DNA of 64,000 bases from Nitrospirota bacterium (GTDB lineage: Bacteria; Nitrospirota; Thermodesulfovibrionia; Thermodesulfovibrionales; Magnetobacteriaceae). This document shows, piece after piece, positions 32,936-56,730 of the stretch. Numbering within the stretch: position 1 is the stretch's first letter; the number at the start of each line of letters is the position of its first letter. The notes under the pieces were generated by a model. The model saw only the letters and a program-made list of their open reading frames with translations, did not search any database and was not told the origin of the DNA. A program made the translations under genes and the position numbers. The stretch is taken from the NCBI GenBank assembly GCA_015233895.1, contig JADFXG010000002.1:1-64000 (forward strand), read 5' to 3'.

Positions 32936-34570
32936 TTATCTTTTGGGTGACATATTCATCAGGAATCTGATGATTTGTACTAATGCGCCTTTAACCGTTG
33001 TGACTTCACTGGTCAGTCCTGTGAGTTTTCCTTCTAAGGTGGACTGCACGTCTTTTGTCTGAGTTTTTACGATTGATAAATCGTTGGAGAGTGATGAGAG
33101 TGAGTCTAATTTATTTTCAAGGCCGATTAGAATTCCACTGTTTATGCTTGCTATTTTTTCGTAATCTATCCTTTCAACAGTGAACTTTTCGTAATCTATC
33201 TTTTCGTATTCATTTGTTGATTGAACTCTTTGGCTTGCTGCAAGGAAATTTCCTAAAACCGAGACAACATCCCCCATCTGTTTTGAAAGCTCAGTGAGCT
33301 TTTCCTCTATTACAGTTGTGTGTTCAGTAGTGTTGATTACAGGCATTGATGAGCTGACAGGAGCGCTCTTACCGGCACCAGAGGCAAGAAGAGCGTTTAA
33401 CACTGATACCATATTTCCGGTCTGTTTTGAAAGCACAGAGAGTTTATTTTCTAAGCCTGTCTGATTATTCTCAATCCGGTTAATTACTGATGGAATCTCT
33501 CTGAGGGCTGAGGCAAGAGGTACCAATAACTTTTCAAAATCCCTCATAGAGCCTTTGCTGACATCGGCTATTTTTTCGTAATCTATAGTCTCAAAATTCA
33601 GTTTTGACAGCTCAGCTTTATTTATACCGCCCTTTTGAGCTGCTCCCACAGCAAGAAGCCCCTTTAAGGCTGACAGCATCTCCACAGTGTGTTTTGAAAG
33701 CCCGCTGAGTTTACCCTCCACTGCCGCCTGATTTTTCTCAAGCCGGCCTATAAGCGATGGAATGTCTCTAAGAGCAACTGTTAGCGGCACAAACCGGCGT
33801 TCAAAGTCCTGCAAGGCATCCCTGTTGGCATTGGTTATTTTGTCGTAGTCTGTTTTCTGAGCGCCAATATTAACAGTGGCGGCAAGCAGAGTGCTAAGAG
33901 CCTTTGAAATCCCTGCTATTTGCTTTGAGAGATTGGAAAGCGCCGATTCATTAACAGCATGGCCTATATCAGAGTCTCCTCTAAGTGATGGGGCAGCGTC
34001 CCGTGAGACTGATAAAAACGCAGCCAGCCTCTTTTCAAATTCTCTCAGCGTTTCTTTTGTGACATCAGAGATTTTTTCGTAATCTATTTTATCGTGCTCT
34101 CTTCTTACATAGTTTATTGCCGGCAGACTCTCTCCTTGTCCATCTGCATTTTGACGGCTGCTAAGAGACTCTAAAACATCCATTAACTGCTCAGACAGTG
34201 TGGTTATCTTTTCCTCAATACCAGCCTGATTTTTCTCAAGCTGTTTCTTAAGCATCGATAAGTCACGGAGGATTGTTGAAAACACATCATATTTGGTTTC
34301 AAATTCTTTAAAGTTCTTCTTGCCAGAACTAAGGATTCTCTCAATGTCTTTTATCTTTAAATCCAATCTGCCTTTTGTATTTAACTTTACAGCTCTTCTA
34401 AAAACAGGACCAACTGAACCCTTTGGCTTCAACACGGTAACAGCATCCGCTGCCTTTGAAACAAGACCCGCAGTAGTGTCATAGACATTTACAATGGCTG
34501 AGCCGCTTGCATTTAACGCTTTTGCCAATCCGCCTGCTACAAGCGATCTTCTTTCTGATGTATCATCCAT
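32936..34570 (-). CDS. Soluble coiled-coil repeat protein of the magnetosome cluster, with ALNASGSAI N-terminal module
   Basis: 544 aa. The ATG at 34570 has the ribosome site ggaggag and matches the HEAT protein start (MDD); the GTG 4 codons upstream sits inside that site. Residues about 9-45 form a module (GLAKALNASGSAIVNVYDTT then AGLVSKAADAV) shared at 24 of 31 positions with the HEAT-repeat gene at 39846-41153. The rest has about five degenerate repeats with the linker IDYEKI..... and (L/M)(R/Q)(D/E)FE(K/R)(R/L), the same repeat family as the VWA protein next door, and a matching C-terminal end (ALVQIIRFLMN). No signal peptide. Function unknown; inferred scaffold. Confidence 0.75.
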   Translation of the reverse strand: MDDTSERRSLVAGGLAKALNASGSAIVNVYDTTAGLVSKAADAVTVLKPKGSVGPVFRRAVKLNTKGRLDLKIKDIERILSSGKKNFKEFETKYDVFSTILRDLSMLKKQLEKNQAGIEEKITTLSEQLMDVLESLSSRQNADGQGESLPAINYVRREHDKIDYEKISDVTKETLREFEKRLAAFLSVSRDAAPSLRGDSDIGHAVNESALSNLSKQIAGISKALSTLLAATVNIGAQKTDYDKITNANRDALQDFERRFVPLTVALRDIPSLIGRLEKNQAAVEGKLSGLSKHTVEMLSALKGLLAVGAAQKGGINKAELSKLNFETIDYEKIADVSKGSMRDFEKLLVPLASALREIPSVINRIENNQTGLENKLSVLSKQTGNMVSVLNALLASGAGKSAPVSSSMPVINTTEHTTVIEEKLTELSKQMGDVVSVLGNFLAASQRVQSTNEYEKIDYEKFTVERIDYEKIASINSGILIGLENKLDSLSSLSNDLSIVKTQTKDVQSTLEGKLTGLTSEVTTVKGALVQIIRFLMNMSPKR

Positions 34571-34614
34571 TAACTCCTCCACTCTATAATAACGCTGCTA
34601 TTCATGTTTTTCCA

Positions 34615-37600
34615 CTACTTCCCCTGTGTCTGTATTGAGCCCAGAAGCCTGATAACATTTATAAGGGCGTCTTTAAATGTTGTCATTTCCGCTGAAAGCC
34701 CAGATAGTTTTTCTTCAATATCGCTCTGATGCTGCACAAAAGCGTTCCTCATTGGTGGAATTCCGGATATAAATGACGATACATCATCCAGCCGCTTTTC
34801 AAAGTCTTTCAGGGTTTCTTTTGTGGCATCAGCTATTTTTTCGTAATCTATCGCTTCGTAGTCAGTCTTTTGGGCGCTTTGTTTAAGCTCAAATAGCTCT
34901 GCTGAAAGAGTTGACAGCTTGGCTTCAATATCGCTCTGATGCTGCACAAAAGCGTTCCTCATTGGTGGAATTCCGGAGATAAATAATGATACATCATCCA
35001 GCCGCTTTTCAAAGTCTTTCAGAGTTTCTTTTGTGGCATCGGTGATTTTTTCGTAGTCTATCTTCTCATAATCAATAGCTTCATGGTCTGTTTTTTGTGT
35101 ACTCTGTTTAAGCTCAGAGAGCTGCTCTGCAAGTGTTGAAAGTTTGGCCTCTATATCGCTTTGGTGCTGTACAAAAGCGTTCCTCATAGGCGGAATTCCT
35201 GAGATAAATGCAGATACCGCATCAAGCCGCTTTTCAAAGTCTTTCAGAGTTTCTTTTGTGGCATCGGTGATTTTTTCGTAGTCTATCTTTTCATAATCAA
35301 TAGCTTCATAGTCTGTTTTTTGTGCACTTTGTTTAAGCTCAGAGAGCTGCTCTGAAAGTGTTGATAGTTTGGCTTCTATATCGCTTTGGTGCTGTACAAA
35401 AGCGTTCCTCATTGGCGGAATTCCTGAGATAAACGCCGACACTGCCTCAAGCCGCTTTTCAAAGTCTTTCATCGTTTCCTTATTGGTATCAGCGATTTTT
35501 TCATAATCTATTTTCTCTTGTACAGTCATTTCATGGTCAGGCTTCTTTTCTGCGTTTTGTTTAAGCTCAGAGAGCTGCTCTGCAAGTGTTGAAAGTTTCT
35601 CTTCTATATCACTCTGGTGCTGTACAAAAGCATTCCTCATAGGCGGAATTTCTGAGATAAATGCAGATACCGCATCCAGCCGCTTTTCAAAGTCTTTCAA
35701 TGTTTCTTTTGTGGCATCGGTGATTTTTTCATAATCTATCTTTTCATAACCAATAGCTTCTCTGTCGGTTTTTTGTGCGCCTTGTTTAAGCTCAGAGAGC
35801 TGCTCTGCAAGGCTCAAAAACATACCCTCTATATCGCTTTGATGCTGCACAAAGGCGTTTCTCATAGGTGGGATTCCGGTTATAAACGCCGACACTGCCT
35901 CAAGCCGCTTTTCGAAATCCTTCATCGTTTCCTTGTTGGTATCAGCGATTTTTTCGTAATCTATTTTCTCTTGTACAGTCATTTCATGTCCAGCCTTATG
36001 TATGTTTTGTTTAAGTTCGGAAATCATAGTTTCAAGGTGTGACAATTTCCCCTCTATATCAAGTTGGTGCTTTTCAAAAGTATTCCTCATAGGTGGGATT
36101 CCGGTTATAAATAAGGAAACTGCCTCAAGCCGCTTTTCAAAATCCTTCATCATTTCCTTCGTAGCAATGGCTCCTGTAAAAGTCCCAAGTTTAGAGGCAA
36201 AGTCAACAGTAAGCGCATTTTTCAACTCAGCAACTATCTCCAGAAAAGTTTCTTTAACCTTAGCATGAGTTTTACCTACGCTATCTGTCAGTTCATCTTT
36301 AATTGACTCTCTTATGCCATCATAAATCTTGTCAAAAGCCCCTGCCCCTGCGCCTACAGTATTAGTGATGGCTGCTATATCTTGCTGTAAAGTCGCATAC
36401 TCCTGACTCTTTGTCTCTCTGACATTAGAGATAGCATTTTTTGTTTCCATTTCAAGTCTTCTCAGAATGTTTTTTAGATTCTCCTGAATGCCCTCAACAA
36501 ATTCTCCCAATAAGCCGTGAATAAATGACTCAACTCCCTCGTTATCTGTTATTACCAATTCCGCTCTCTTTATTTCAGCAACTCCGGCAGTGACCTTTTT
36601 AAGCTCATCCTGTATGGCTTTGACGGCTTGTGTAACAGAGGTATCGTCAGATTTCCCACCTTTCCTTAGCAGCAATATAATCACTATTACAAACAGTAAC
36701 ACCACAGTTAACAGCAAAAGCAGCCACTGATTGCTTTGCACAGATGTCTTCAATGGCGAATCAACAACAGTCTCTTCTTTGGGTTTAGACTCAACAGCGG
36801 CATGAGGTGTGCTCTCAGGTGTCTGGACATTGGCTGCAGGTATTATGAATTCTTTCTTTAACTCGATGTCCTGTCCCTGATGCTTCAATTTAACAATACA
36901 CACGTGTTTACCAGTCGGCCCTGAGTAGTTGTAATCTATCAAATATTTAATCCGCTTAGGAATGAAAATAGTTCGCGAAAGAGTCTGAATCTCCTCAAAG
37001 CCTGGATTTACCAGCAAAGTGCCTTTTGTCAGTTTTGTAATGTTGTCAAGGGGCTCAAAGTAATGCCGGCTGTTGCCAAAAATCATCACATTGACAGGAA
37101 TATGAGGTTTTTTAATTTCTTTCATGAGAGTTTCAATCGGTATATCGCTATCTTCATCTTTAGCATCAGTAATAACAAGCATAGATGTCTTTGCCGTTTT
37201 AGATTTTTCGGCTAATTTAATTCCCTCTGAAATGCCGCTATAAAGCAGTGTTTTTTTCTCAAGAGCTGTTAGTGAATCTATTTTACTTGTGAGAACAGAT
37301 TTATCATCAGAGAGATTCTCAATAACTTTTACATAGTTACCAAAAGTCAAAAGAGTCGCATAGTTACCATCGCTAAAAGGAGCCAGCAGGTAGGATGCGT
37401 ATTTTTTTGCATTTGCAATCGGAATCCCGTTCATGCTTCTGCTGACATCTATTGCCAAAATAAGCGACGTGGACTCATCGTTAACCGATGTTATAGAAAA
37501 ATCACCAATTGTTTGGCCATCTACGGTAATACTGACGTTTTCCTTTTTTAACGGAACATCAGTTTCGTTAGAGACCACTACAGCCGCAACTTTAGCAAAA

Positions 37601-37734
37601 TCTCTGACCTTTACATCGTTTAATTCAAAAGGAGCTTTCTTAGGATTGGTAGCACCAACAGAGGCAACCACAACTGATACAACTAATACTAACAACACTG
37701 CAACTATTGCAGTAAGAACCACCCTCTTTTTCAT
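34615..37734 (-). CDS. Membrane-anchored von Willebrand A protein with seven coiled-coil repeats
   Basis: 1039 aa. N-terminal membrane helix or signal (about 6-27), a VWA domain (about 85-260) with MIDAS residues in DVSRS (96-100) and VITD (190), a Pro/Glu-rich linker, a second membrane helix (about 337-356), then a long coiled-coil region. From residue about 528 to the end there are seven copies of a ~73-aa unit: (L/M)KDFEKRLDAVSAFISGIPPM then RNAFVQHQSDIE.KLS.L.EQLSELKQ, linked by IDYEKI.D..KET. By topology the VWA domain would face the periplasm or magnetosome lumen and the repeats the cytoplasm. It is the second-to-last gene of the magnetosome cluster. I know no characterised homologue. 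Confidence 0.82.
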   Translation of the reverse strand: MKKRVVLTAIVAVLLVLVVSVVVASVGATNPKKAPFELNDVKVRDFAKVAAVVVSNETDVPLKKENVSITVDGQTIGDFSITSVNDESTSLILAIDVSRSMNGIPIANAKKYASYLLAPFSDGNYATLLTFGNYVKVIENLSDDKSVLTSKIDSLTALEKKTLLYSGISEGIKLAEKSKTAKTSMLVITDAKDEDSDIPIETLMKEIKKPHIPVNVMIFGNSRHYFEPLDNITKLTKGTLLVNPGFEEIQTLSRTIFIPKRIKYLIDYNYSGPTGKHVCIVKLKHQGQDIELKKEFIIPAANVQTPESTPHAAVESKPKEETVVDSPLKTSVQSNQWLLLLLTVVLLFVIVIILLLRKGGKSDDTSVTQAVKAIQDELKKVTAGVAEIKRAELVITDNEGVESFIHGLLGEFVEGIQENLKNILRRLEMETKNAISNVRETKSQEYATLQQDIAAITNTVGAGAGAFDKIYDGIRESIKDELTDSVGKTHAKVKETFLEIVAELKNALTVDFASKLGTFTGAIATKEMMKDFEKRLEAVSLFITGIPPMRNTFEKHQLDIEGKLSHLETMISELKQNIHKAGHEMTVQEKIDYEKIADTNKETMKDFEKRLEAVSAFITGIPPMRNAFVQHQSDIEGMFLSLAEQLSELKQGAQKTDREAIGYEKIDYEKITDATKETLKDFEKRLDAVSAFISEIPPMRNAFVQHQSDIEEKLSTLAEQLSELKQNAEKKPDHEMTVQEKIDYEKIADTNKETMKDFEKRLEAVSAFISGIPPMRNAFVQHQSDIEAKLSTLSEQLSELKQSAQKTDYEAIDYEKIDYEKITDATKETLKDFEKRLDAVSAFISGIPPMRNAFVQHQSDIEAKLSTLAEQLSELKQSTQKTDHEAIDYEKIDYEKITDATKETLKDFEKRLDDVSLFISGIPPMRNAFVQHQSDIEAKLSTLSAELFELKQSAQKTDYEAIDYEKIADATKETLKDFEKRLDDVSSFISGIPPMRNAFVQHQSDIEEKLSGLSAEMTTFKDALINVIRLLGSIQTQGK
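34620..36153 (-). repeat. Seven tandem in-gene repeats of about 220 bp
   Basis: The coding repeats of the VWA gene remain very similar at the DNA level (for example gcgttcctcattggtggaat recurs with few changes at each unit). Two sub-types alternate: units ending in a MTVQEKIDYEKIADTNKET linker and units ending in an AIDYEKIDYEKITDATKET linker, which suggests duplication of a two-unit block. Copy number could vary between strains. Confidence 0.8.
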
Positions 37735-37906: not shown

Positions 37907-38482
37907 TCAGTCTATATGATAGTTGTGCATTATTTTAGATAATGAAACTTTACTTTCCACCTCTTTAAAAGCCTTATGTACCTGTTTTAAAATAACATCG
38001 TATTCAGTAAACTTTGGCATGATGAGTTTCTTTTTTCTCTCAACTGAGTTTAAAGCATTCTGGATTTCATTAAACTTTGCAACCACTATTTCCTTGTCAT
38101 CCCTTACCTGAGAAAGCTCATCCCTGAGATGGTTTTTAACGCCAACAGTGTTTTGTAAATCCTCTTCCACTATTTTTATATTTCCCTTATAACGGTTTAT
38201 CTCCTCAATAATGCGATCCTTTTTGCTGTGTAAATCATCTATAGCACTGCCATAACCCTCCACCCTGGATTGCTCACGCTCAAACTCCTCTTTCGTCCTC
38301 TTTATGATAACTTCAAGTCCCTCGGTCTGTCCGGTAAGCGCTCTCAGCCTTTCTTTTAAAACAGCGTTTACTTTAGTCAGCTCTTCTTTACTTTTAGCAA
38401 GAATCTTTAGCTCGTCTATAAGTTCATGAACCTCTTCAAACACACTCTTTTCGGAATACATATCATCCATCAGTTCGTCCAT
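37907..38482 (-). CDS. Coiled-coil protein of the magnetosome cluster (Mad-like)
   Basis: 191 aa, nearly all predicted heptad helix after an acidic N-terminus (MDELMDDMYSEKSVFEEVHE). No membrane segment. It is the last of three consecutive coiled-coil genes. Long coiled-coil proteins (Mad23, Mad25, Mad26 group) are known from magnetosome clusters of Nitrospirota and Desulfobacterota with bullet-shaped crystals; I cannot say which, if any, this is. A 172-bp gap to the VWA gene start shows no gene. Confidence 0.7.
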   Translation of the reverse strand: MDELMDDMYSEKSVFEEVHELIDELKILAKSKEELTKVNAVLKERLRALTGQTEGLEVIIKRTKEEFEREQSRVEGYGSAIDDLHSKKDRIIEEINRYKGNIKIVEEDLQNTVGVKNHLRDELSQVRDDKEIVVAKFNEIQNALNSVERKKKLIMPKFTEYDVILKQVHKAFKEVESKVSLSKIMHNYHID

Positions 38483-38493
38483 GGCTCTTTCAC

Positions 38494-39210
38494 CTAACCC
38501 TGAGTCTCATCGTAGCCAGCAAACTTTGCATCCATGCAGTCACGGTATTTCTTTTGTAAATCAGCTATTTTACCCAGATTGATAATCCTCTCGCCCTCCA
38601 AAACATTCACCCGGCGCACTGAAGACTCTAACTTACCGGCAAATCTTTCCAGCTTTGACTCTAAAAATCCAATGTCGCCAACAAGGTCAGCCTTTTCGCT
38701 CTCAAGCTCTGAAATCCGCATCTTTGCCAACTCAAGCTCTTTAACAGCCCTTTCAGTTTTCACTTTTAAGTCATGAATTGAAACCTGTGCTGCGTTTCTT
38801 TCATTAACCATATACTCCACCTCGGCCATCAACTGGCTCTTGGCCGGAGTTTCCTCACGCATTTGCTCAATCAGCGCCTCACGCTCCGCTTTTTCAAGCC
38901 TGAGCTCTGATATTACACCTTTTGCGCTTTCAATATCACGCACCAGTGCCGCATTGATGGAAAGCACCTCGTTTAACTCTGCCTCCATTTTTACCAAAGA
39001 GACCACTATTTCCTTTACCGTGTTCCCAATGTTAGGTGAGGCTATATCTTCATTAAGCAGCTTGAATATGTTTAACTCTTTCGTCTTAAAAAATCTCTTT
39101 GCTACCGGACTCATTAAAGCGTCCCCGCCATTTTCAACAGTTACATCATTACTGTGGGCATCTGTTTCGCTCCTCTGCTCTGGCTCCTCTGACAAGTATA
39201 AGTTCTCCAT
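38494..39210 (-). CDS. Coiled-coil protein of the magnetosome cluster (Mad-like)
   Basis: 238 aa. An acidic, probably disordered N-terminus (about 1-40) precedes a helical segment FFKTKELNIFKLLNEDIASP and a long coiled coil (about 65-225) rich in Glu, Lys and Leu (LEAEK/ISELESEKADL pattern). No cysteine pair or membrane helix. It lies 4 bp after the previous coiled-coil gene and 11 bp before the next, so the three are one translational block. Confidence 0.7.
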   Translation of the reverse strand: MENLYLSEEPEQRSETDAHSNDVTVENGGDALMSPVAKRFFKTKELNIFKLLNEDIASPNIGNTVKEIVVSLVKMEAELNEVLSINAALVRDIESAKGVISELRLEKAEREALIEQMREETPAKSQLMAEVEYMVNERNAAQVSIHDLKVKTERAVKELELAKMRISELESEKADLVGDIGFLESKLERFAGKLESSVRRVNVLEGERIINLGKIADLQKKYRDCMDAKFAGYDETQG

Positions 39211-39214
39211 GGTT

Positions 39215-39844
39215 TCACCTTTTATAATATTTTATTTTAAAATTTCTCTCCACTGTCCTTATCCCTGAGTGAAGACCTTGCAATGCGTCGGCAGTCCACT
39301 TAAGCCGTTCGTGAAGAAACTCCAGGTCTTTGTGCTTGCTTGAAATCTTTTGTTCTGCCTCTTCTGTCTTATCTTTGAAAGTCTCAATCTCCCCTTTTGT
39401 AAAATCAAGCTCTATGAGGCTTGCACCTATGTCGTTTATTTCTTTGTTGAGTTTATCCGATAACGTATTGTACTTTTCCATCAACTTAACCTTTTCTGAC
39501 TCTAAGAACTTTATTTCAGAAGCTAATCTGTTTTCCTCAGAAAGCGGCGGCAGGTTTTTCCTCTTTATCGCTTTAATCTTCTCGTCGTACTTTTTAGCCT
39601 CTTTCTCTTTTACTAAAACCTCATATTCAAGTTTTTTGATTTCCTTTTCCATATTGTAGTTCATGTCTTCAAGAGTCTCAACCTCTTTAGCAAGTTCCTT
39701 CTTCTCACTGCCAAGGCTTTCCGAATAAGCGTTTAGCTCCTCCTGATTTTCAAGGATTTTAGCTATTGCGGCATCCCGGATACTCTCAGAGCTGAAATAA
39801 CCGTCATCAGACATTATGTCGTAGTTCTCTTCATCCATATCCAT
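39215..39844 (-). CDS. Coiled-coil protein of the magnetosome cluster (Mad-like)
   Basis: 209 aa. Acidic N-terminus (MDMDEENYDIMSDDGYFS), then an almost continuous coiled coil with a proline break near KRKNLPPLSEENR (about residue 95). The ATG lies one base after the stop of the HEAT gene; a second ATG two codons later has better spacing to the ribosome site. Same family type as its two downstream neighbours, sequence unrelated. Confidence 0.7.
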   Translation of the reverse strand: MDMDEENYDIMSDDGYFSSESIRDAAIAKILENQEELNAYSESLGSEKKELAKEVETLEDMNYNMEKEIKKLEYEVLVKEKEAKKYDEKIKAIKRKNLPPLSEENRLASEIKFLESEKVKLMEKYNTLSDKLNKEINDIGASLIELDFTKGEIETFKDKTEEAEQKISSKHKDLEFLHERLKWTADALQGLHSGIRTVERNFKIKYYKR

Positions 39845-39845
39845 C

Positions 39846-41153
39846 CTACATACCCTCTCCTGAAGTCTCTGATTGTTCGGCAGCTTTCACTGAAGCACCA
39901 TTAGAAACCGATTCGGCCACTAACGGGGACAACTCCAGCGTCTTTACCCCCTGCCACCATCTCCTTAACTTATCTATCTCCGATGCAAGCACATCCCCTG
40001 TGAGATCAACATTGAAAGACACATACTCGCCGGTTATTGTATTTATGGCTTCAAGCGCCTTTTCCCGTATGTCGCGTGATTCATCGGTAAGAGTGCGAAT
40101 AAGGGGTGAGACGGCTGACTTGTCTTTTATCGTTGAGAGGGCTGTTATGGCCGACTTTTTGACTCCCTCATCTCTGTCGTGAAGCGCTTGTACAAGGGCT
40201 GGAACAGTGTCTGAGGAGTCTCTCCAGCCAAGGAATGTGGCCGCTGTTTTTCTGACCTCCTGGTGTTCATCCTTAAGTGCATTTAGCAGCACCGGAATTG
40301 CGTTATCGTCTCCGGCAAGCTTGTAAAGCCCCCGCAAAGCTCCCACTCTCACTCTGAAATTTGAAAACCTCGCAGCCTCTTTTAAAAACGGGATAGCAGA
40401 AGTGTCGTCCAGATTTATAAGCGCATTTATTATGTCTGAAATAAGGTATGGATTTTTGTAGCCTGCAGCCTCTATCAGTATTGGCACGGCTGCCTTAAAC
40501 CCAAAGCGTCCAAGCTCAGACACCGCCATTATCTTTATTTCCATCTCAGAGTCAAGAATGTCCCCGGCAATTTTAGCAAATATCTCCCGTTCAGAGTCCG
40601 TTAAAAACTCCTTGCTCCTTATTGCACGCTGTATGGCTGCCTCTACGGAGGCCGCTACTTTGCTCTCATCCGGTTTACCTTTTTTATTTAACGAGCTGGT
40701 TGCAGATTTTGATTGGTGTCTCTGCGCCTCTTCCTGGTTTTCAAGCTCTTTGAGCTCTGCCTGTCGGGTTTTTAACCGCTCTATCTCACGTTCGTAGTCT
40801 TTAACCTGTCTGACAATCGCCCCTATGCTTTCCGATTCGGCATCCTCTCCCTCAGCACTAAGTCTCCCGACCTCAGCGTAGAGTTTCTTTACTTTACCCT
40901 CGTAATCTTTAATTTTAGCATCAAGGCTCTTTTTCTCACCCGGCTTTGTAAGTCTCAGAGAAGAGAACATATTGTCCGGAAACTTTGGCAGAGCTGGCAT
41001 TCTGGGCGTAATGTTGACCACAGAGTTTGCCGCTTTTGAGACAAGGTCTGCCGTTGTGTCGTACATGTTTAAAATAGCAGAGCCGCTTGCGTTTAACGCC
41101 CTTGCAAACCCATCAAGTATAGATGATTTCCCTTGTGTTGATTTATCGTCCAT
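39846..41153 (-). CDS. HEAT-repeat protein with the ALNASGSAI N-terminal module
   Basis: 435 aa. Residues about 12-48 (GFARALNASGSAILNMYDTT then ADLVSKAANSV) match the N-terminus of the soluble repeat protein at 32936-34570. A coiled coil follows (about 70-150), then five to six HEAT/PBS-lyase-like repeats (about 190-390; AVPILIEAAGYKNPYLISDI, AIPVLLNALKDEHQEVRKTA, AVSPLIRTLTDESRDIREKA). HEAT arrays bind partners. Position in the magnetosome cluster and the shared module suggest a role with the repeat proteins. RBS gggaggt. Confidence 0.78.
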   Translation of the reverse strand: MDDKSTQGKSSILDGFARALNASGSAILNMYDTTADLVSKAANSVVNITPRMPALPKFPDNMFSSLRLTKPGEKKSLDAKIKDYEGKVKKLYAEVGRLSAEGEDAESESIGAIVRQVKDYEREIERLKTRQAELKELENQEEAQRHQSKSATSSLNKKGKPDESKVAASVEAAIQRAIRSKEFLTDSEREIFAKIAGDILDSEMEIKIMAVSELGRFGFKAAVPILIEAAGYKNPYLISDIINALINLDDTSAIPFLKEAARFSNFRVRVGALRGLYKLAGDDNAIPVLLNALKDEHQEVRKTAATFLGWRDSSDTVPALVQALHDRDEGVKKSAITALSTIKDKSAVSPLIRTLTDESRDIREKALEAINTITGEYVSFNVDLTGDVLASEIDKLRRWWQGVKTLELSPLVAESVSNGASVKAAEQSETSGEGM

Positions 41154-41169
41154 TTAGTATATACCTCCC

Positions 41170-43229: not shown

Positions 43230-43231
43230 AG

Positions 43232-44296: not shown

Positions 44297-44297
44297 G

Positions 44298-45469: not shown

Positions 45470-45470
45470 A

Positions 45471-47252: not shown

Positions 47253-47264
47253 GACCCTTATCTC

Positions 47265-47486: not shown

Positions 47487-47506
47487 AACTGTACGCTCCT
47501 TTTATT

Positions 47507-47624: not shown

Positions 47625-47641
47625 TAATTATTTATTAATAT

Positions 47642-48310: not shown

Positions 48311-48323
48311 ATATCTCCTCGTT

Positions 48324-48710
48324 TTATAATGTTGTATGTCCAATTATTATTAAAAGAACCCACACGATAAACATAAACTGCTGGGTATGAAGCAGCTTCA
48401 TTTTGTTATACATCTGCGATGGTTTTCCCCAGTGCATGATGCCTCCCACCACACAAAGCCAAACTGTGACTAACATCGAGGTCTGAAGCAAAAAATTCCG
48501 CTCATCGGCATTATGGCCGTGAATGAAAGTCAGCAAAAGCCCCACAAGGTTCAGAGTTATATGCAGGTCAAGGTACGTGCGAAAGAATCTGGTTATCTCC
48601 GGAGACTGTCCTACAAGTTTTTTAGTAAGTACCTTTGCCGGATAGTAGGCATTTGCCACAATAAAAGCCACGGCTGCCAGCAACCCTAAAAAGTCGTTAC
48701 TTATTCTCAT
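48324..48710 (-). CDS. Four-helix membrane protein with spaced histidines
   Basis: 128 aa from the ATG at 48710, whose ATGA overlaps the mamB stop. About four membrane helices with histidines in and beside them (YLDLHITLNLVGLLLTFIHG, MHWGKPSQM, LLHTQQFMFIVWV and a final IIIGHTTL). The pattern looks like a small b-type cytochrome or ferric-reductase-like fold and could bind haem or iron, which is inference. Located between mamB and mamA. I cannot assign a magnetosome gene name. Confidence 0.65.
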   Translation of the reverse strand: MRISNDFLGLLAAVAFIVANAYYPAKVLTKKLVGQSPEITRFFRTYLDLHITLNLVGLLLTFIHGHNADERNFLLQTSMLVTVWLCVVGGIMHWGKPSQMYNKMKLLHTQQFMFIVWVLLIIIGHTTL

Positions 48711-49597: not shown

Positions 49598-49639
49598 GCG
49601 ACAGCGCTCCTTCTATAATAACTATTTACTTTAAAAGAG

Positions 49640-49731
49640 GAGATTGCGACGTCGCTAACGCTCCTCGCAATGACAGATAGGGAAAAGAACGAGATTACTA
49701 CGTCGCTGTCGCTCCTCGTAATGACGGATAA
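49640..49731. repeat. Two adjacent family-A palindromic repeats
   Basis: 49640-49680 (GAGATTGCGACGTCGCT start) and 49691-49731 (GAGATTACTACGTCGCT start) are each about 40 bp, with CTCCTCG(C/T)AATGAC near the end. They match the unit at 8599-8638 and lie just upstream of mamB, within the gap between mamB and the second mamQ gene. Confidence 0.7.
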
Positions 49732-49740
49732 GAAAACTCT

Positions 49741-49877
49741 GCCTCGAGCCGTCGTTGGACAATCCGCAAAGCTTCGAGCCGTCGTTGGACAATCCGCAAA
49801 GCTTCGAGCCGTCATTGGACAATCCGCAAAGCTTCGAGCCGTCATTGGACAATCCGCAAAGCTTCGAGCCGTCATTG
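49741..49877. repeat. 30-bp tandem repeat (minisatellite) between mamB and mamQ-II
   Basis: Four full copies (49741-49860) of a unit that reads gcttcgagccgtcattggac then aatccgcaaa, and a partial fifth, with a C-to-G and A-to-G change between copies. The period is a multiple of three, so it gives spurious repetitive open frames on both strands; these are not genes. It runs into the family-B palindrome at 49872-49908. No promoter is obvious in the 347-bp gap 49598-49944. Confidence 0.9.
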
Positions 49878-49908
49878 CGAACCCCCGCAGGGGGTGTGGC
49901 AATCTCCG
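49872..49908. repeat. Dispersed palindromic repeat, family B (short form)
   Basis: GTCATTGCGAACCCCCGCAG then GGGGTGTGGCAATCTCC. The ends are inverted copies (ATTGC, GCAAT) and the middle CCCCC...GGGGG pairs, so it can fold as a hairpin. Related to the longer form at 8664-8720. Confidence 0.65.
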
Positions 49909-49944
49909 CTTTTCAAAACCAATTAACATACTTTTACAAACATC

Positions 49945-50532
49945 CTAATCAACCATTGGGACATGCTCTGCTCCCTCCTCCGATTTATAAAACTGCTTCT
50001 CATGAAAACCAAGATTTTTGGCAAAAATATTATAAGGAAACAGATATATATAATCATTGTACTCATAGACGGCCACGTTGTAGTTAGTTCTGGCATAGGC
50101 AATACGCTTTTCGGTAGCTGCCATTATATCCATTAGATACAAGAAAGGCCCTTTAGCCATAAGCTCCGGAGATCTCTCACCAAGGTAAGAAAGCACGCTT
50201 AAGAGACGCACTATTTCGCTCTTTGTCTGCTCCTGAGCCGCATAGTTTGTGCCGGTTCTGAGCAACCCGTTTAATTCAACCAAAAGGTTAAACAGTTTGT
50301 TCTCTGTCTCCATATACATATTGGCAGCCTTCCCGGCGCTTTCCAGCACTTGCAGCCGCCTCTGTTCTTCAGACTTGAGGTTATTTGCCGATATATCGTA
50401 AATATGCTCCTCATCCACCAACTGATTGTAGATAAACGCATGGACCAGAGACTTATAAAGCAAAAATATACCGACAAATGCTAAAAAATACTTTACGCTC
50501 AGATATTTTGATCTTAATTTTTTACTTATCAT
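49945..50532 (-). CDS. MamQ-like LemA-family protein (copy II, divergent)
   Basis: 195 aa. A single membrane helix (about 12-32) is followed by a helical LemA-like region ending in YARTNYNVAVYEYNDYIYLF and FPYNIFAKNLG, which align with the LemA C-terminal motif (YN..V..YN......P.N). The RRNDLIPNLV motif is missing. A second, weaker MamQ copy is known in 'Magnetobacterium' clusters. It overlaps the EcsC-like gene by 11 nt. Confidence 0.7.
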   Translation of the reverse strand: MISKKLRSKYLSVKYFLAFVGIFLLYKSLVHAFIYNQLVDEEHIYDISANNLKSEEQRRLQVLESAGKAANMYMETENKLFNLLVELNGLLRTGTNYAAQEQTKSEIVRLLSVLSYLGERSPELMAKGPFLYLMDIMAATEKRIAYARTNYNVAVYEYNDYIYLFPYNIFAKNLGFHEKQFYKSEEGAEHVPMVD

Positions 50533-51202
50533 CTTTCCAGCTTATCTGTATGTTATCATTATCCCACACACTGAAATACTTCCGGGCATGGTTGCCAACT
50601 GTCATAGTTGACACCAGATTAAAGGATGCGCCAAGAGGCACGCCTATAAATGGTATAAATCTGTAGTATTTCTTTAAAAGCCTTGGTATAAGCCGCTCAG
50701 CAAACTCCACCGTGGCTACCTCAACACCCCTGTTGATGTAACTTTTTGCAATCTCATCCACGGCAGTTCTTAGCACTGAGGCAGCAGTGGCCTTAAAGGC
50801 CTGGCTTGAACCGGAAAACCCCAGCAGTGCCAGCGTTATTGCCTTTAGCTCATCCTCACCAAGTTCTACTCCGTACGCTGCTGATATGGCAAAACAGAGC
50901 TCTATCTGAATTCTTAACACCAGTGCTAAATCCACAAGAGAACCTGCAAGTACTGTCCCAATCGTCCCAATAATAGGGATTGTCATAGGAAGGGTCGTAA
51001 GCCCCCCAATCCCTGCCGCCTTATAAGCCGCCTTTTTCATAAGATTACCGGAAACGGTATAAGATAAATACTTTTGCGGTTTATCACCGCCCATTTTTAG
51101 ATCAAACTCATCAATAAGTGCATTGACATCACTTTTAATGCTGGGCAGATGCGTGCCACTCAAAGTCAGCACCTTATCAAACCATTCGTATTTATCAGCC
51201 AT
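50522..51202 (-). CDS. EcsC-family protein of the magnetosome cluster
   Basis: 226 aa. Helical, with a hydrophobic glycine-rich segment (GIGGLTTLPMTIPIIGTIGT) and the EcsC-type regions VLRIQIELCFAISAAYGVEL, AKSYINRGVEVATVEFAERL, RFIPFIGVPLGASFN. EcsC proteins are associated with ABC export in Bacillus, but the family function is not settled. It sits between mamM and mamQ-II, and its stop overlaps mamQ-II, so co-expression is likely. Confidence 0.7.
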   Translation of the reverse strand: MADKYEWFDKVLTLSGTHLPSIKSDVNALIDEFDLKMGGDKPQKYLSYTVSGNLMKKAAYKAAGIGGLTTLPMTIPIIGTIGTVLAGSLVDLALVLRIQIELCFAISAAYGVELGEDELKAITLALLGFSGSSQAFKATAASVLRTAVDEIAKSYINRGVEVATVEFAERLIPRLLKKYYRFIPFIGVPLGASFNLVSTMTVGNHARKYFSVWDNDNIQISWKDDK

Positions 51203-51218
51203 GCCTTACCAAAACTCC

Positions 51219-52121
51219 CTAAAAGGCCTCTATGCCCATATTTATACCGCTTATGTTGCCTATCTTAGACTTTAACGTGTTTTCCACCTGCGCTCCTATC
51301 AGATAACCCTTATCAAGTGTATGGCTCTGATCCACTTTGATAATCATATCCACCCATATCCCGTGCCCAACCTTTCTGGCATTTACGCGCGCTACACGCC
51401 TTACGCCCGGCACAAGCATAGCAGTCATTTCCATCTCCTTGAGCACATTTTTGGGCAGCGACGAATCCATTATCCCTTTAAACGAATCGTTTAACATTCC
51501 GGCACTAAGCCTTATTAAATCCAACGTCTCTATCACTGCCACAAGCGGATCAACAAAGTAAAATCCATACCGTGAAAGCAGCACAGCACATGCTACAAAT
51601 GCTGATGATACTGCATCTGAGTGATTATGTTTGGCGTTGGCTATAACTGCCGGACTTTTCAACTTTTCTCCCACACAGTACAGGTATGAGGAAAGTTTAT
51701 AATTAGCTATCATTGAAATAATCGCAGCAAACAGAGCTATAAGCTTTGGCTTATAAACATGGCCAAGGTACGCATTCCAAATATCCTTTACCGAGTGAAT
51801 CAATAAAAACAGAGTGCCTATGATGATAAGTATGCTTATCAGAAAAATTGAAACGTACTCTATCTTACCATGGCCATACGGATGCCCCTCATCGGCAGGT
51901 TTACCAGATACCTGAACACCGATAAAGACAACAAGGGAGGTCAAAAAATCCTTAAAAGAATACAAGGAATCAGCAAGGACGGCCTTACTTCCGCTAATAA
52001 AACCAACTACTGCCTTAAAAATGGCAAGAAAAAGATTGGCACTCACAGCAGTCCAACCGGCTGCCTTAGAGCAGTTGTAACACTCCGGATAGACTATATT
52101 ATTTTGTGGCAGTTCGTGCAT
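51219..52121 (-). CDS. mamM: MamM-like cation diffusion facilitator
   Basis: 300 aa from the ATG at 52121 (ribosome site aggggatt); the longer frame to 52247 would run through mamP. Six membrane helices and a C-terminal cytoplasmic domain. VLADSLYSFKDFLTSLVVFI, ADEGHPYGHGKIEYVS and IWVDMIIKVD are the MamM-type signatures, with the D-x3-D metal sites (NHSDAVSSA). MamM forms a heterodimer with MamB for iron transport. Overlaps mamP by 28 nt. Confidence 0.85.
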   Translation of the reverse strand: MHELPQNNIVYPECYNCSKAAGWTAVSANLFLAIFKAVVGFISGSKAVLADSLYSFKDFLTSLVVFIGVQVSGKPADEGHPYGHGKIEYVSIFLISILIIIGTLFLLIHSVKDIWNAYLGHVYKPKLIALFAAIISMIANYKLSSYLYCVGEKLKSPAVIANAKHNHSDAVSSAFVACAVLLSRYGFYFVDPLVAVIETLDLIRLSAGMLNDSFKGIMDSSLPKNVLKEMEMTAMLVPGVRRVARVNARKVGHGIWVDMIIKVDQSHTLDKGYLIGAQVENTLKSKIGNISGINMGIEAF

Positions 52122-53038
52122 AATCCCCTGTTTCTGTGCGGACACGGTGTGCCCCATTTTATTGACGGCGGAGGTATGGGGAGAGCATCCCCTGCGTCCA
52201 TGCCAAGAGTGCTTGTGTTTTTCGCTGACTTTGAAATAGAGTGGCATTTGTCACACGGGCCGTAGTAGCCATGCGGACTTCTCGACGTTGAAAATATCAT
52301 GGGAGCCGCCTCCATCTGAGCCACGCCAAGCGCCTCAGACGACTTCACCGGTATTTTAATATCACCATTTTTCCTGTAAACTGTGACAACTGCCTCGTTT
52401 TTCATTGCAATCGCAGCAGTTGCCGCCTTAAACGAATGTAAGTCACTAACCGGCACATCGTTAACTGCCGAAATTACATCTCCTGCGTATATGCCCGATG
52501 CTGCGGCAAGGAGTGTCACCTCATCTATCAACACGCCAGTAACGTTTTGTGGTATGCCGTTAGCCTGTGCTAACTGCGGCGTAAGCGGCACAGCCTCAAG
52601 CCCAATCCAGTGTCCCTCTTGCAGAATTTTTTCAAGCAAGGCGGCATTTACCGCTGAGGGTGTGGTCTGCGTAGTGGTTGAGTTATCCGGGTTAACCGTC
52701 CAAAACATGTCTTTTGGGTCAACTTGCCAGCCGACTGCGGGTTTAGCAGAGTCTGTGCCCTGAGTGTCGGAGGGAGCGGACTGGTTATTGTAAGCAGGCC
52801 CATAGTTGTTAGCTCCCGGCACTGCATTAGGGTCCATCAAATCACCCTGACGATTTACAGGACGATTTAGGGCCGCAAGCGCCGGACTAACAGCGTTTTG
52901 CCGTACGTTTTTTATTAGTTCCTCCTCGTTCCTTTCCTTGCCCATAAATTTCTCCGGGCTAAAGATCAAAAGGTATCCGGCTGTAACCACTATAAGCAGC
53001 ACGAGGATAAAGTTAATTGATTTCCACAAGTTTTTCAC
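52094..53038 (-). CDS. mamP: MamP-like PDZ protein with two magnetochrome motifs
   Basis: 314 aa from a GTG (ribosome site ggag, 8-nt spacing). One membrane helix (about 8-27), a Pro/Asn-rich linker, a PDZ domain (about 145-235), then two CxxCH haem motifs at 262-266 (PCDKCHS) and 307-311 (LCTNCHK) near the C-terminus. MamP is a c-type iron oxidase that controls the Fe(II)/Fe(III) balance for magnetite. The stop overlaps the mamM start. Confidence 0.88.
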   Translation of the reverse strand: MKNLWKSINFILVLLIVVTAGYLLIFSPEKFMGKERNEEELIKNVRQNAVSPALAALNRPVNRQGDLMDPNAVPGANNYGPAYNNQSAPSDTQGTDSAKPAVGWQVDPKDMFWTVNPDNSTTTQTTPSAVNAALLEKILQEGHWIGLEAVPLTPQLAQANGIPQNVTGVLIDEVTLLAAASGIYAGDVISAVNDVPVSDLHSFKAATAAIAMKNEAVVTVYRKNGDIKIPVKSSEALGVAQMEAAPMIFSTSRSPHGYYGPCDKCHSISKSAKNTSTLGMDAGDALPIPPPSIKWGTPCPHRNRGLCTNCHKII

Positions 53039-53040
53039 TC

Positions 53041-53199
53041 TTATGACTCCGCAGCCTTAGGCTCCAGCATCGCATCCAACTTTTCCCTTACTTTGTTCTT
53101 TAACTTTTCAAGAAAAGTCGGATTATTGCGCTTTACCACCTCATACGCTATCGCTCCGGCAAACACTCCAAGAAATATACCTATCATAGCCTTAGCCAT
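53041..53199 (-). CDS. Small single-helix protein before mamP
   Basis: 52 aa with an excellent ribosome site (aggaggt, 7-nt spacing). It consists of an N-terminal membrane helix (AMIGIFLGVFAGAIAYEVVK) and an amphipathic basic tail (FLEKLKNKVREKLDAMLEPK). The TAA stop is 2 bp before the mamP GTG, so it is translationally close-coupled with mamP. It is not a recognised family; by build it could be a small magnetosome membrane protein. Confidence 0.7.
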   Translation of the reverse strand: MAKAMIGIFLGVFAGAIAYEVVKRNNPTFLEKLKNKVREKLDAMLEPKAAES

Positions 53200-53235
53200 T
53201 GTCGTTACCTCCTGTTAAGTATTTCTCTTCTGCCA

Positions 53236-54576
53236 CTACCAGCTTTCCTCTGGCTTTACATCAGAATCTGGCTTTACATCAGAGTCGGACTCTGAGCCGG
53301 TTTCGCTGGCCTCTTCATTTGCCGTCTCTGTACTTTCTTCTGATGTGTCAACAACCGGCACTTGCTCCTCATCTGCGGCGCTGCCGGCAGTCTCCTCAGA
53401 AACAGGTACATCCCCGGGGACACTTACCGGCTCTTCTACCACAGGTGTTGTTACCTCAGACACTGCCTCAGCCTCTTCAGTGTGTGGCTCTGACGCCTCA
53501 GGCGCTGCCTCATGAACCGGCTTACAGCATGTTGGATAGAGCCTCTCTTGTCTTTCCTTTATTAGCTCGTTTAGTATCTCGTCATTATCCTTAAGTTGCC
53601 GCAGATACCCTGAGGCCTCTTTATCGCTATACAGGTCAGATAGTATCTGCCCCTCGTAAATCCTCTTACCAAGCAAAGTCAGGAGTTTTTCATTTTCTTT
53701 CTTTAAACGGCGTATATCATAGGAGATGATAACCCCTCTTGCCGAGCCTCGTCCGGCCCCTGCTGATGCCTTTGCAGCTGTGCTTGTTGCCTTAGCAAAT
53801 GATTGCCCTGTTACTTTTGCCCCCTCGGCTATTGTTTTACCCATTGAAGCAAAGAAGCCGCCGATTTTAGAAACAGTCTCAGGATTTGTAGAAGCATCTA
53901 CGGTGGCGGTAGTAGCCTTTGCGATTGCTTTACCCGCTTTGGATAACATATCCCCAAATCCAATGGATTCTGCGGCATCAACTGTAGCTTTTGCTGTTAC
54001 GGTTGTGGCCTTAGCAATTGCCTTACCTGAAATCACAGCTCCCTCTGCCACAGTTTTACCCATTGATACAAAGAAGTCACCCATTCCCTCAGTCATACTT
54101 ACAGCATAGTCGCCGAGGTGTTCCATCACATACCTGAAATCTCTATGTTCAACGTCTTCATCGAATCTCTTATTCTTTACTGTCTCTTCAGTAGTGGTCC
54201 GTTGATCGTCCGTGGGAGCCTCTGCCTCAGGTGCTTCAGTTTCTTGTGCCGATATCGGCTCCTCTGTTATTTCCTCAGTTGGCGCCGGCTCTTCAGCTTT
54301 TACCTCAGTTGCTGCTACAGGCTCCTCGGCTTTTTCCTCTGCCGCTACAGGCTTCTCTGTTATTTCCTCAGTTGGCGCCGGATCTACTGTAGTTTCCCCA
54401 GATACTGCCGTAGTGTCTTCTGCACTCACATCCTGAGGTTCTACAGGTATCTCATCCTCCACAGGGTTCACATCGGTATCTGCGTTTTCTTCTGCATTTA
54501 CACTGTCATCGTTGTGCTCTTCAGTCATAACTGCCTCCACACCACTTTTTTTGTCATTCTTTCGTTTTCTTGGCAT
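53236..54576 (-). CDS. Acidic repeat protein near mamK, candidate MamJ-like linker
   Basis: 446 aa. An N-terminal region of about 140 residues is rich in Glu, Ala, Pro, Thr and Val with EEP/AEE repeats. A central part (about 150-290) has two copies of a hydrophobic alanine-rich motif (FFVSMGKTVAEGAVISGKAI and FFASMGKTIAEGAKVTGQSF), each followed by AKATT/TVDA-type segments. Then come a helical region (about 290-350), a CC pair (YPTCCKP) and a second acidic tail. Sequence is unrelated to MamJ, but composition and position near mamK fit an acidic linker. No signal peptide. Confidence 0.7.
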   Translation of the reverse strand: MPRKRKNDKKSGVEAVMTEEHNDDSVNAEENADTDVNPVEDEIPVEPQDVSAEDTTAVSGETTVDPAPTEEITEKPVAAEEKAEEPVAATEVKAEEPAPTEEITEEPISAQETEAPEAEAPTDDQRTTTEETVKNKRFDEDVEHRDFRYVMEHLGDYAVSMTEGMGDFFVSMGKTVAEGAVISGKAIAKATTVTAKATVDAAESIGFGDMLSKAGKAIAKATTATVDASTNPETVSKIGGFFASMGKTIAEGAKVTGQSFAKATSTAAKASAGAGRGSARGVIISYDIRRLKKENEKLLTLLGKRIYEGQILSDLYSDKEASGYLRQLKDNDEILNELIKERQERLYPTCCKPVHEAAPEASEPHTEEAEAVSEVTTPVVEEPVSVPGDVPVSEETAGSAADEEQVPVVDTSEESTETANEEASETGSESDSDVKPDSDVKPEESW

Positions 54577-54577
54577 T

Positions 54578-54823
54578 TTATATCTCCGTTTCTTTCCGTT
54601 TTTTCAACTTTTCCTGCATCCTTTTTATTAACCAAAAAGACGCTATAGTTATGGTAGCTCCAAGTGCTGCGCTAAAAATTATAATCAAACTTAAATTAAA
54701 GTGGAAAGGATTTCCAAAGAAGACTTTAACCGGTACCTCCCTTTGATTCTGGTCAAGGAACACGACCACAAGAAATATCGAGATAGAAATCGGCAGAAAT
54801 TTTAGTAATAAGAAATCTCTCAT
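54578..54823 (-). CDS. LapA-domain (DUF1049) small membrane protein, MamL-like
   Basis: 81 aa, two membrane helices (about 10-25 and 43-66) and a basic tail (RMQEKLKKRKETEI). The NQREVPVKVFFGNPFHFNLS segment between helices is the LapA/DUF1049 signature. MamL of Magnetospirillum has the same two-helix build and basic C-terminus and is needed for vesicle formation. Homology to MamL is suggested but not shown. It lies between mamK and the acidic protein gene (whose ATG is one base past this stop). Confidence 0.7.
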   Translation of the reverse strand: MRDFLLLKFLPISISIFLVVVFLDQNQREVPVKVFFGNPFHFNLSLIIIFSAALGATITIASFWLIKRMQEKLKKRKETEI

Positions 54824-54886
54824 CGTGGCTCAGACCGACACGTTCATTACGCTGTGATAGAGTACATACAAGTTCTTAGACGTACA

Positions 54887-54902
54887 TATGTATGTATGTA
54901 TG
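54887..54902. repeat. Short TATG tetranucleotide repeat
   Basis: Four copies of tatg between the mamK stop and the LapA-like gene start. Such tracts can slip, but it is outside any coding frame, 64 bp from the LapA-like start. Confidence 0.6.
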
Positions 54903-54972
54903 TATAAGTGTCTCCTTACAGCACATGTCTTTGCCAAACCTCCCTAAACGGTGTTTTAGTTAATATTAATAC

Positions 54973-56043
54973 TTATTTTTTCTTACTGCCTATCTCGTTC
55001 CAATACTCCTCGGGCATGTCTTTACAGAGCATCAGTGCGCCGTTTGCACCCGCAAAAAGAGTTTCCTCAATTCGGGTAACTTTGCCGTAGCCGAGATTTT
55101 TTTTCATATAATCTTCTATTTCTTTTTTAAGCCCCGCTATCTGGCTGCCGCCACCGGCTAAATACACATTTTCTTTGAGAATTCCCTGAAACTCCGGATC
55201 AAACGTAGCGATGAGTTTTTTTATCCCCTCGACTATCTCCGGCACTACCTCTCTGCAGGCCATCTTTAGCTCATTTGTAACATCATGCCGTTCCGGTTTG
55301 CCTTTTACTGGAATCTCTATAAAAATACTGTCGCCGTGTTCAGATATATTAGCGTTTTCCTCTTTAAATCTCTTTACCATATTTACTGTAAAATTAGCGT
55401 CTCCGTGCTTTTTCATAATCAGGTCGTAAAACACCGAATCAACGTAGTCACCTGCTTTAGTCGTTGTAATTTGGTCCTCATCGGAGGGCATTGTGCCGTG
55501 CATTCTGCATAGATCCACGGTGCCTGCCCCAATGTCAACAATAAGAACATTATTAAGCAGATTAAGCCCATAAGCAACCGCAAACGGCTCAGACACTATC
55601 ATCACATCATCAAGAATTCCTGAGGCTATTTCAAGCAGCACTTTTTTGTTTTTTCTGCTAGCCATAGCTGGAGCACCAAGCACTCCTCTTACTATAAAGT
55701 CACCTTCAACATCGGTGCTGCCCTCTTTCGCTATCTCTATCAGATGCCTCAAAAGCTCCTTTGCCGCATCTATGGACTTCTGGTACTCTACATCTTTTTC
55801 CGTGAGCTCATCTGTGTATTTAAGCATTCCCTTATCAAATGGTCTGTAAAGCGTAACTGCCATCTTATTTCTCAATGCGTCATCGCCAAAGGCAATGTCT
55901 TTGCCAAGCAGCTTTTTTGATATCGCATCTTTAGGAAACCCCACATAGCTTGATACAAAAGTCCTTATACCGTTATCGCAGGCTATAACGCTTCTGGATG
56001 TCCCCAAATCTATTCCGACGTTTAACACATGTCTGTCAGACAT
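54973..56043 (-). CDS. mamK: MamK actin-like protein
   Basis: 356 aa. Phosphate-1 motif LNVGIDLGTSRSV, phosphate-2 VLIVDIGAGTVDLCRMHGTM, adenosine motif NVYLAGGGSQIAGL, and the VGFPKDAISKKLLGK segment are those of MamK rather than ParM or MreB. MamK forms cytoplasmic filaments that position magnetosome chains. RBS aggagaaag. It is the second gene from the top of the magnetosome cluster. Confidence 0.93.
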   Translation of the reverse strand: MSDRHVLNVGIDLGTSRSVIACDNGIRTFVSSYVGFPKDAISKKLLGKDIAFGDDALRNKMAVTLYRPFDKGMLKYTDELTEKDVEYQKSIDAAKELLRHLIEIAKEGSTDVEGDFIVRGVLGAPAMASRKNKKVLLEIASGILDDVMIVSEPFAVAYGLNLLNNVLIVDIGAGTVDLCRMHGTMPSDEDQITTTKAGDYVDSVFYDLIMKKHGDANFTVNMVKRFKEENANISEHGDSIFIEIPVKGKPERHDVTNELKMACREVVPEIVEGIKKLIATFDPEFQGILKENVYLAGGGSQIAGLKKEIEDYMKKNLGYGKVTRIEETLFAGANGALMLCKDMPEEYWNEIGSKKK

Positions 56044-56092
56044 TAACTTTCTCCTGTATGTTTTTTCTGAAACATTGTCTCTAATTTATACA

Positions 56093-56611
56093 TTATTTCA
56101 TCTCCGACCGCAGTTCTACATTTTCCATAACGATACTTTTCAAAAATGATTTCTTGGCATCCGCAAGTCTCCTCTTAGGTTGCTCAGCCGATTTAATCCT
56201 TCTATCCAGCTGTATTCCGTGGCTTTCTATATAAGCAAGGCGTTTCTCTATTGCCTCAAGACGCTGTTCTATGTTAGTGAGGCGCATACTCCGTCTGTTA
56301 ATCAGTTTTTCTAAGTAGAGCAGGATTTCCTTAATCTCTTTGGATGCTTTACCTGTTAAGTCTTTAACAGGCTGCATGATGCTCTTAACTGGAGCAGCTA
56401 TGCCTTTAATAGGAACGACGATTTTAGATATTGGAGCACCTACCGCTTTGCCCCCTCTTACCACATAACTATACACTACCAGCACAGAGTATTCCATAGA
56501 GGCGTATGTATAAAGCCAGGATTCGTTTAGTATCTCAACACTGCCGGAGACAGATGAATCCACCAGTTTTTTCAAATCCCCGCAATCCACTTTCATTTTC
56601 GGCAATTTCAT
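56093..56611 (-). CDS. Small protein at the head of the magnetosome cluster
   Basis: 172 aa with an aaggagg ribosome site. An N-terminal acidic helix, a hydrophobic patch (YSVLVVYSYVVRGGKAVGAP) and VPIKGIAAPVKSIMQPVKDL repeats, then a coiled coil (about 105-150, LINRRSMRLTNIEQRLEAIE). No signal peptide. It is the first gene after the candidate promoter and 49 bp before mamK. Function unknown. Confidence 0.65.
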   Translation of the reverse strand: MKLPKMKVDCGDLKKLVDSSVSGSVEILNESWLYTYASMEYSVLVVYSYVVRGGKAVGAPISKIVVPIKGIAAPVKSIMQPVKDLTGKASKEIKEILLYLEKLINRRSMRLTNIEQRLEAIEKRLAYIESHGIQLDRRIKSAEQPKRRLADAKKSFLKSIVMENVELRSEMK

Positions 56612-56700
56612 ATAACCTCCTTAAGTAATCCACCAATAATCCACCGTTTTTATACTTCTAAATACTACTCTTAAAGACACCTAAGCAAACTTGACCAGCA

Positions 56701-56730
56701 ATACTACTAAAAACAAAAAAATAAAGTCAA
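56701..56730 (-). promoter_or_regulatory. Candidate sigma-70 promoter of the magnetosome cluster
   Basis: On the minus strand TTGACT (56730-56725), 18-bp T-rich spacer, TAGTAT (56706-56701); five and four of six positions match consensus. The leader to the first ATG is about 85 nt. It is the best match in 56612-56822, which otherwise has no gene. Confidence 0.5.

Follow-up and report, generated by a model that had tools for sequence, protein, structure and literature searches.

The main magnetosome gene cluster of a Candidatus Magnetomonas species and a two-gene extension encoding a VWA protein and a Mad23-like candidate partner

Where does the magnetosome gene cluster of a Nitrospirota bacterium end, and do the genes lying directly behind its last published member belong to the same system? 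This question is raised by a stretch of 64,000 nucleotides (hereafter, the window; G000:C2:1-64000) from a 331-kb contig of a metagenome-assembled genome (MAG) of 3.71 Mb in 65 contigs. The minus strand at 37907-56611 almost certainly represents the main cluster of magnetosome genes in a species of Ca. Magnetomonas, and it is followed by 2 additional genes, encoding a VWA protein (extra gene 1) and a protein with a Mad23-type N-terminus (extra gene 2). The core cluster from man1 to mad26 is already described biology, for which the window provides one more well-assembled Ca. Magnetomonas example, and what is new is the two-gene extension after mad26, a variant worth testing. As the best explanation overall, we consider it probable that the locus combines the main cluster with a VWA anchor and a partner protein that position the magnetosome bundle.

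The identity of the core cluster is supported by its gene content and order. The Nitrospirota cluster man1 to mad26, as published, comprises 23 genes, and all of them are present on one strand and in the published order, which is given in the text of both PMC8353452 and PMC9376291. The same order is kept in the congeners G016, nDJH6bin1 (G017), and G018 as well as in other genera, where identities drop to 22-70%, and this retention across genomes and genera is far beyond chance. Compared to Ca. Magnetomonas plexicatena LBB01 and nDJH6bin1 (PMC9376291, PMC8353452), the window shares genus, strand, genes, and gene order, with mad28-mad29 on a separate locus. Moreover, profile searches identified all 6 widely shared genes (mamA, B, I, K, M, and Q). 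Intergenic distances mostly range from -28 to +49 bp, with larger ones after mamK (149), mamQ-II (347), mamA (155), and mad26 (172). Promoter and terminator scans returned values at the level of shuffled sequences, and therefore no operon claim has been built on them; a plasmid search found nothing.

A previous sequence-only reading of the window had proposed a Nitrospirota-type magnetosome cluster in one minus-strand run, and all of the genes it listed were indeed found at 32936-56611 in the order it gave, with the 23-gene order conserved in the genomes of the genus and in other genera. Its assumption that 32936-56730 forms a single magnetosome cluster held for the man1-mad26 part, while the last 2 genes lie outside the published set. 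It had also considered that the best relatives might be found outside magnetotactic bacteria or that the host might belong to a non-magnetotactic lineage; the best relatives are in magnetotactic MAGs, and magnetosome genes occur throughout the host family, with mamB in 17 of its 19 genomes. Many other families of the order also yield MamK matches of 43-52%, to which no weight was given as a sign of magnetotaxis. Within the host family, the 6-Mb genome G007 has 2 mamK genes (L083:8234-9346 and L085:8364-9443) without other cluster genes within approximately 8-11 kb, and its mamB is on another contig.

Judged by its sequence relationships, the host is a species of Ca. Magnetomonas. Its DNA identities to the 3 other genomes of the genus are, over the aligned parts, 94.9% (G017), 84.2% (G016), and 75.4% (G018), the alignment to nDJH6bin1 covering 26 kb. 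G017 was equated with nDJH6bin1 on the grounds that JADFYB010000084.1 matches its 12,575-bp contig exactly. G016, a closed congener with a single contig of 3,273,455 bp, fits the circular 3.27-Mb genome of Ca. Magnetomonas plexicatena LBB01, which it probably represents; LBB01 has been grouped with nDJH6bin1 (PMC9376291). The window does not contain rRNA genes, and the only 16S rRNA of the MAG (rRNA operon on the 3.4-kb contig G000:C59, L001) is just 78% identical to that of G016; it is therefore probably a bin contaminant and was not used for the host assignment. Silent clusters exist in other lineages (PMC9938234), and the cluster could be complete but silent in a non-magnetic host. We consider this very improbable, as dN/dS values (nonsynonymous to synonymous substitution rates) are far below 1 throughout the cluster (0.02-0.28 in all credible comparisons) and LBB01, which is the nearest described species, produces bundles of magnetite (PMC9376291).

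The first additional gene (34615-37734, minus strand) encodes a protein of 1039 amino acids (aa) with hydrophobic stretches at residues 5-23 and 338-356 and, at approximately 91-252, a VWA domain (Pfam VWA, 3.4e-10) with an intact DxSxS site (DVSRS) of the MIDAS motif. Hydropathy and Pfam matches predict a signal peptide or signal anchor, a non-cytoplasmic VWA domain, a transmembrane (TM) helix, and a cytoplasmic C-terminus. The tail is a 680-residue heptad-repeat coiled coil, encoded by 225-bp tandem repeats at 34706-36166; its heptad signal against shuffled sequences reaches a z of 13.6, compared to -0.5 for the VWA domain and 0.9 for MamE as controls. The length of the protein varies among congeners (814, 1039, 1043, and 1221 aa), and no NCBIfam model matched the product.

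The second additional gene (32936-34582, minus strand) encodes a protein of 548 aa without a TM helix. Its first 55 residues are 55% identical to residues 1-56 of Mad23 (E 4e-15), including an ALNA-G segment that is shared by the Mad23 proteins of Desulfamplus-type MAGs and other genera. The rest of the protein consists of coiled-coil repeats (heptad z 8.5) in common with the tail of extra gene 1, and a Pfam search found no HEAT match. Extra gene 2 thus shares its N-terminal segment with Mad23 (PMC12748827) and has coiled-coil repeats in place of the HEAT repeats. Its family was found in the host genus only. Single-sequence structure prediction reached a mean pLDDT (predicted local distance difference test) of 38.0 for the VWA part (400 aa) and 37.5 for the extra gene 2 protein, and therefore no fold comparison was made.

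Both genes are under purifying selection, with dN/dS values of 0.13-0.17 (extra gene 1) and 0.12-0.20 (extra gene 2), similar to man5, man6, and mad10. In each of the 4 genomes of the genus, the pair is intact and located on the same strand directly after mad26; in G017, this arrangement extends over 2 contig ends. The LBB01-like genome carries it at the same place; the text of PMC9376291 does not name the 2 genes, and the 22-kb cluster figure in that paper is compatible with a span that includes them. A literature search for VWA genes in Nitrospirota magnetosome clusters found none.

Across the host family, VWA relatives (E 1e-27 or better) were identified in 14 of the 19 genomes. All 14 relatives compared have the DxSxS site and a TM helix after the VWA domain, and the same scan showed an N-terminal hydrophobic stretch in 12 of them. 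In G008, the relative directly follows a set of 3 genes, the actin-like mad28, a small gene, and mad29, and an feoB comes after it. In the g7 genomes (L095, L096, L097, L108), it heads a conserved operon with a second VWA protein, an approximately 210-aa protein, a protein kinase, and a TPR protein. An order-wide search had suggested that the VWA ectodomain is limited to the magnetotactic family; this was dropped when a search of the phylum returned a 30% relative from G299, which belongs to another family of the class, and weak ones from elsewhere.

We lean slightly towards the view that the additional genes encode a membrane anchor and a magnetosome-side partner with a role in chain anchoring. 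The VWA protein would span either the inner membrane or the magnetosome membrane; its VWA domain would face away from the cytoplasm, into which the long coiled-coil tail would reach. The extra gene 2 protein may dock on magnetosomes or on the chain scaffold via its Mad23-type N-terminus and pair with the VWA tail via the related repeats, so that, along the membrane, both proteins would keep the bundle of magnetosomes in place or set its spacing, like McaA and McaB in Magnetospirillum magneticum.

Several observations weigh against this role. Known magnetosome genes do not adjoin the VWA relative in genera g4 and g7, and the family was not found in G001 and G002, which belong to the same magnetotactic family, or in 6 other genomes of the order with MamK at an identity of at least 64%. 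Furthermore, the G299 relative has no coiled-coil tail but a shorter C-terminal part that by eye resembles an FHA domain, and it stands among kinase-like and PP2C-like genes; weaker matches were found in one further family. The additional genes could thus be mere neighbors of the cluster, the VWA protein being an envelope sensor or adhesion protein of a kinase/phosphatase-linked family and the N-terminus of extra gene 2 having been borrowed from mad23 by local duplication, without a role in magnetosomes. The VWA-kinase-TPR operons of g7, the kinase-like and PP2C-like surroundings in G299, and the 172-bp gap between mad26 and the VWA gene would fit this explanation, which we nevertheless regard as unlikely, if worth serious consideration: it has to accommodate the same-strand adjacency to mad26 in all 4 genomes of the genus, the retention of the Mad23 motif in extra gene 2 of G018 at only 57% overall identity, and the separate link of the VWA relative to mad28-mad29-feoB in G008.

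The closest functional parallel to the proposed anchor is McaA of strain AMB-1, which consists of a signal peptide, a VWA domain with MIDAS motif, a TM helix, and a cytoplasmic part, and which requires the MIDAS motif for its localization to the inner (positive) curve of the membrane; McaA and McaB jointly interact with MamK and determine the spacing of magnetosomes (PMC9512821, PMC13170167). Extra gene 1 shares with McaA the VWA domain with intact DxSxS and, by prediction, the signal peptide, the TM helix, and the long cytoplasmic part, and in both cases an adjacent gene encodes a coiled-coil protein, here the candidate partner. However, the parallel to McaA is drawn from layout, and McaB has an N-terminal TM helix and a coiled coil, whereas extra gene 2 lacks a TM helix; both points count against the parallel, and because of them extra gene 1 is not claimed as a member of the McaA family. 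The tail is here a coiled coil derived from 225-bp repeats, in difference to McaA, and the partner has a Mad23-type N-terminus, in difference to McaB. According to PMC9840458, mcaA and mcaB are restricted to Alpha- and Gammaproteobacteria, and Desulfovibrio magneticus RS-1 is devoid of both, lacking all Magnetospirillum chain factors except MamK (PMC12748827). We propose only tentatively that deep-branching magnetotactic bacteria have a membrane-anchored, MIDAS-dependent positioning module of the McaA/McaB type, for which a VWA envelope protein would have been recruited and combined with a shortened relative of Mad23, and which in Ca. Magnetomonas would have joined the cluster.

MIDAS sites bind divalent metal. 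The VWA domain could, accordingly, handle metal for crystal growth inside the magnetosome or the periplasm rather than serve chain placement, and the presence of mad10 and magnetochrome genes in the same run would agree with this. The long repeat coiled-coil tail and the Mad23-type N-terminus of the partner point to scaffolding instead, which renders a metal-handling role improbable.

The individual genes of the core cluster, all on the minus strand, were assigned as follows. The cluster begins with man1 (56093-56611), assigned by position and order, which encodes 172 aa with a coiled-coil C-terminus (97% identity to nDJH6bin1, 27-35% to other genera). It is followed by the actin-like mamK (54973-56043; PDB 5jyg), by man2 (54578-54823), assigned by synteny, with a LapA domain (Pfam LapA_dom, 1.6e-8) and 2 TM helices, and by mad10 (53236-54576), which encodes an acidic protein (22% D+E) identified through synteny and C-terminal similarity in all genera. 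The small open reading frame (ORF) listed by the sequence-only reading proved to be man3 (53041-53199), with an AGGAGG ribosome site and a product of 52 aa with 1 TM helix (98% identity to nDJH6bin1, 38-53% to other genera). Next are mamP (52094-53038), with a PDZ domain and 2 magnetochrome CxxCH motifs at 262 and 307 (Pfam MCR, 1.9e-12); the cation diffusion facilitator (CDF) transporter gene mamM (51219-52247); mad31 of the EcsC family (50522-51202; Pfam EcsC, 3e-12; synteny); and mamQ-II of the LemA family (49945-50532; Pfam LemA, best NCBIfam model MamQ). Between mamQ-II and mamB, at 49598-49944, an insertion of approximately 330 bp contains palindromic stretches resembling repetitive extragenic palindromic (REP) elements and 4.5 copies of a 30-bp tandem repeat (99% alike); in congeners, this gap is approximately 20 bp.

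The second CDF transporter gene, mamB (48707-49597), is 59-71% identical to mamB of other genera, and it precedes mad2 (48324-48725; synteny, 37-62% in other genera), mamA (47642-48343; TPR), mamI (47265-47486; 2 TM helices; NCBIfam MamI, 3.9e-18), and mamE (45471-47252). According to Pfam, the latter encodes a trypsin-like protease with 2 PDZ domains and one CxxCH, and the motifs around the triad H, D, and S are kept. The LemA family gene mamQ-I (44777-45469; Pfam LemA, 4.7e-35; NCBIfam MamQ) is followed by 3 coiled-coil genes assigned by synteny, man4 (44298-44774; heptad z 5.5), man5 (43232-44296; 8.4), and man6 (42072-43229; 5.1), and by mamO-Cter, encoding a TauE transporter (41170-42075; Pfam TauE, 4.3e-51). 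The protein encoded by mad23 (39846-41153) combines a conserved N-terminal ALNA-G motif with HEAT repeats (Pfam HEAT_2, 5.1e-32), and its N-terminus aligns across several genera and Desulfamplus-type MAGs. The cluster ends with 3 further coiled-coil genes identified by synteny: mad24 (39215-39844; heptad z 5.1), mad25 (38494-39210; synteny including Desulfamplus-type MAGs), and mad26 (37907-38482; heptad z 11.6). Relatives suggest shorter starts for 3 genes in the original ORF list, with MamM probably 300-312 aa rather than 342 (start near 52121), MamA 222-224 aa, and Man4 141 aa.

The Mam families, which had appeared clear from motifs, were substantiated by profile and structure comparisons. 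MamK (470 vs. 400 bits) and MamM (386 vs. 350) exceeded their NCBIfam cut-offs, which are tuned on Proteobacteria. For MamP, MamB (220 bits, cut-off 350), MamA, MamI, and both MamQ, the corresponding Mam model was the best match, all under the cut-off, and for MamE a generic DegP/HtrA model ranked first and the MamE model second. Solved-structure relatives were found for MamK (5jyg/5ljv, 3e-74), MamA (3vtx, 2.3e-58), MamP (4jj0, 7e-36), and MamM (3w5x, 2e-7). In other species, vesicle formation, iron loading, and crystal maturation are the tasks of MamB/M/I/Q/E/O-type proteins; MamP is a redox heme protein, and MamK orders crystals into subchains and chains together with Mad23/25/26.

The ORFs that previously were unnamed correspond to Man1, Man2, Mad10, Man3, Mad31, Mad2, Man4-6, and Mad23-26, with the Mad names based on gene order and on Nitrospirota and Desulfamplus-type relatives. 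The estimate of about 14 genes without a known role was correct as to their presence, yet too broad and out of date, as roles are known for mad2, mad10, mad23, mad25, and mad26. These genes have already been mutated in D. magneticus RS-1 (PMC12748827; PMC8353452, citing earlier work). In this species, Mad23 links magnetosomes into subchains, which are kept straight by Mad25 and Mad26; Mad10 interacts with magnetite, and the chain is positioned by MamK and Mad28 (PMC12748827, PMC12713370). Particles of the mad2 mutant are rare and odd (PMC8353452).

Further components of the system are located elsewhere in the MAG. A mad28-small hypothetical gene-mad29 region at G000:C5:95051-97640 resembles the described third region of LBB01, a further Mad28-type actin is encoded on contig C26, and one feoB on C30. 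A Pfam MreB_Mbl search found only MamK, MreB, and FtsA/DnaK-type proteins, not mad28, which was located via the G016 copy beside man1. Such a copy is present beside man1 in G016 and G018 and missing in the window genome, where no mad28 remnant was found upstream of man1 (56612-58000); nDJH6bin1 keeps a 24-residue remnant. Beyond man1, the window encodes a coiled-coil protein of 33-bp tandem repeats (57066-57749), whose relative in G016 is located approximately 14 kb past the other end of the cluster. Two further repeat proteins of a shared 'GSRNWYSIASSSDGTKLAA..YGGYIYTSTDSGSTW' type are encoded near each other at 17765-19126 (minus strand) and 21774-22661 (plus strand).

With the two-gene extension, concrete candidates are available for how Nitrospirota hold their braided magnetosome bundles at the membrane. 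If the proposed role is true, a VWA membrane anchor would be a solution shared by distant phyla, either through descent or through convergence.

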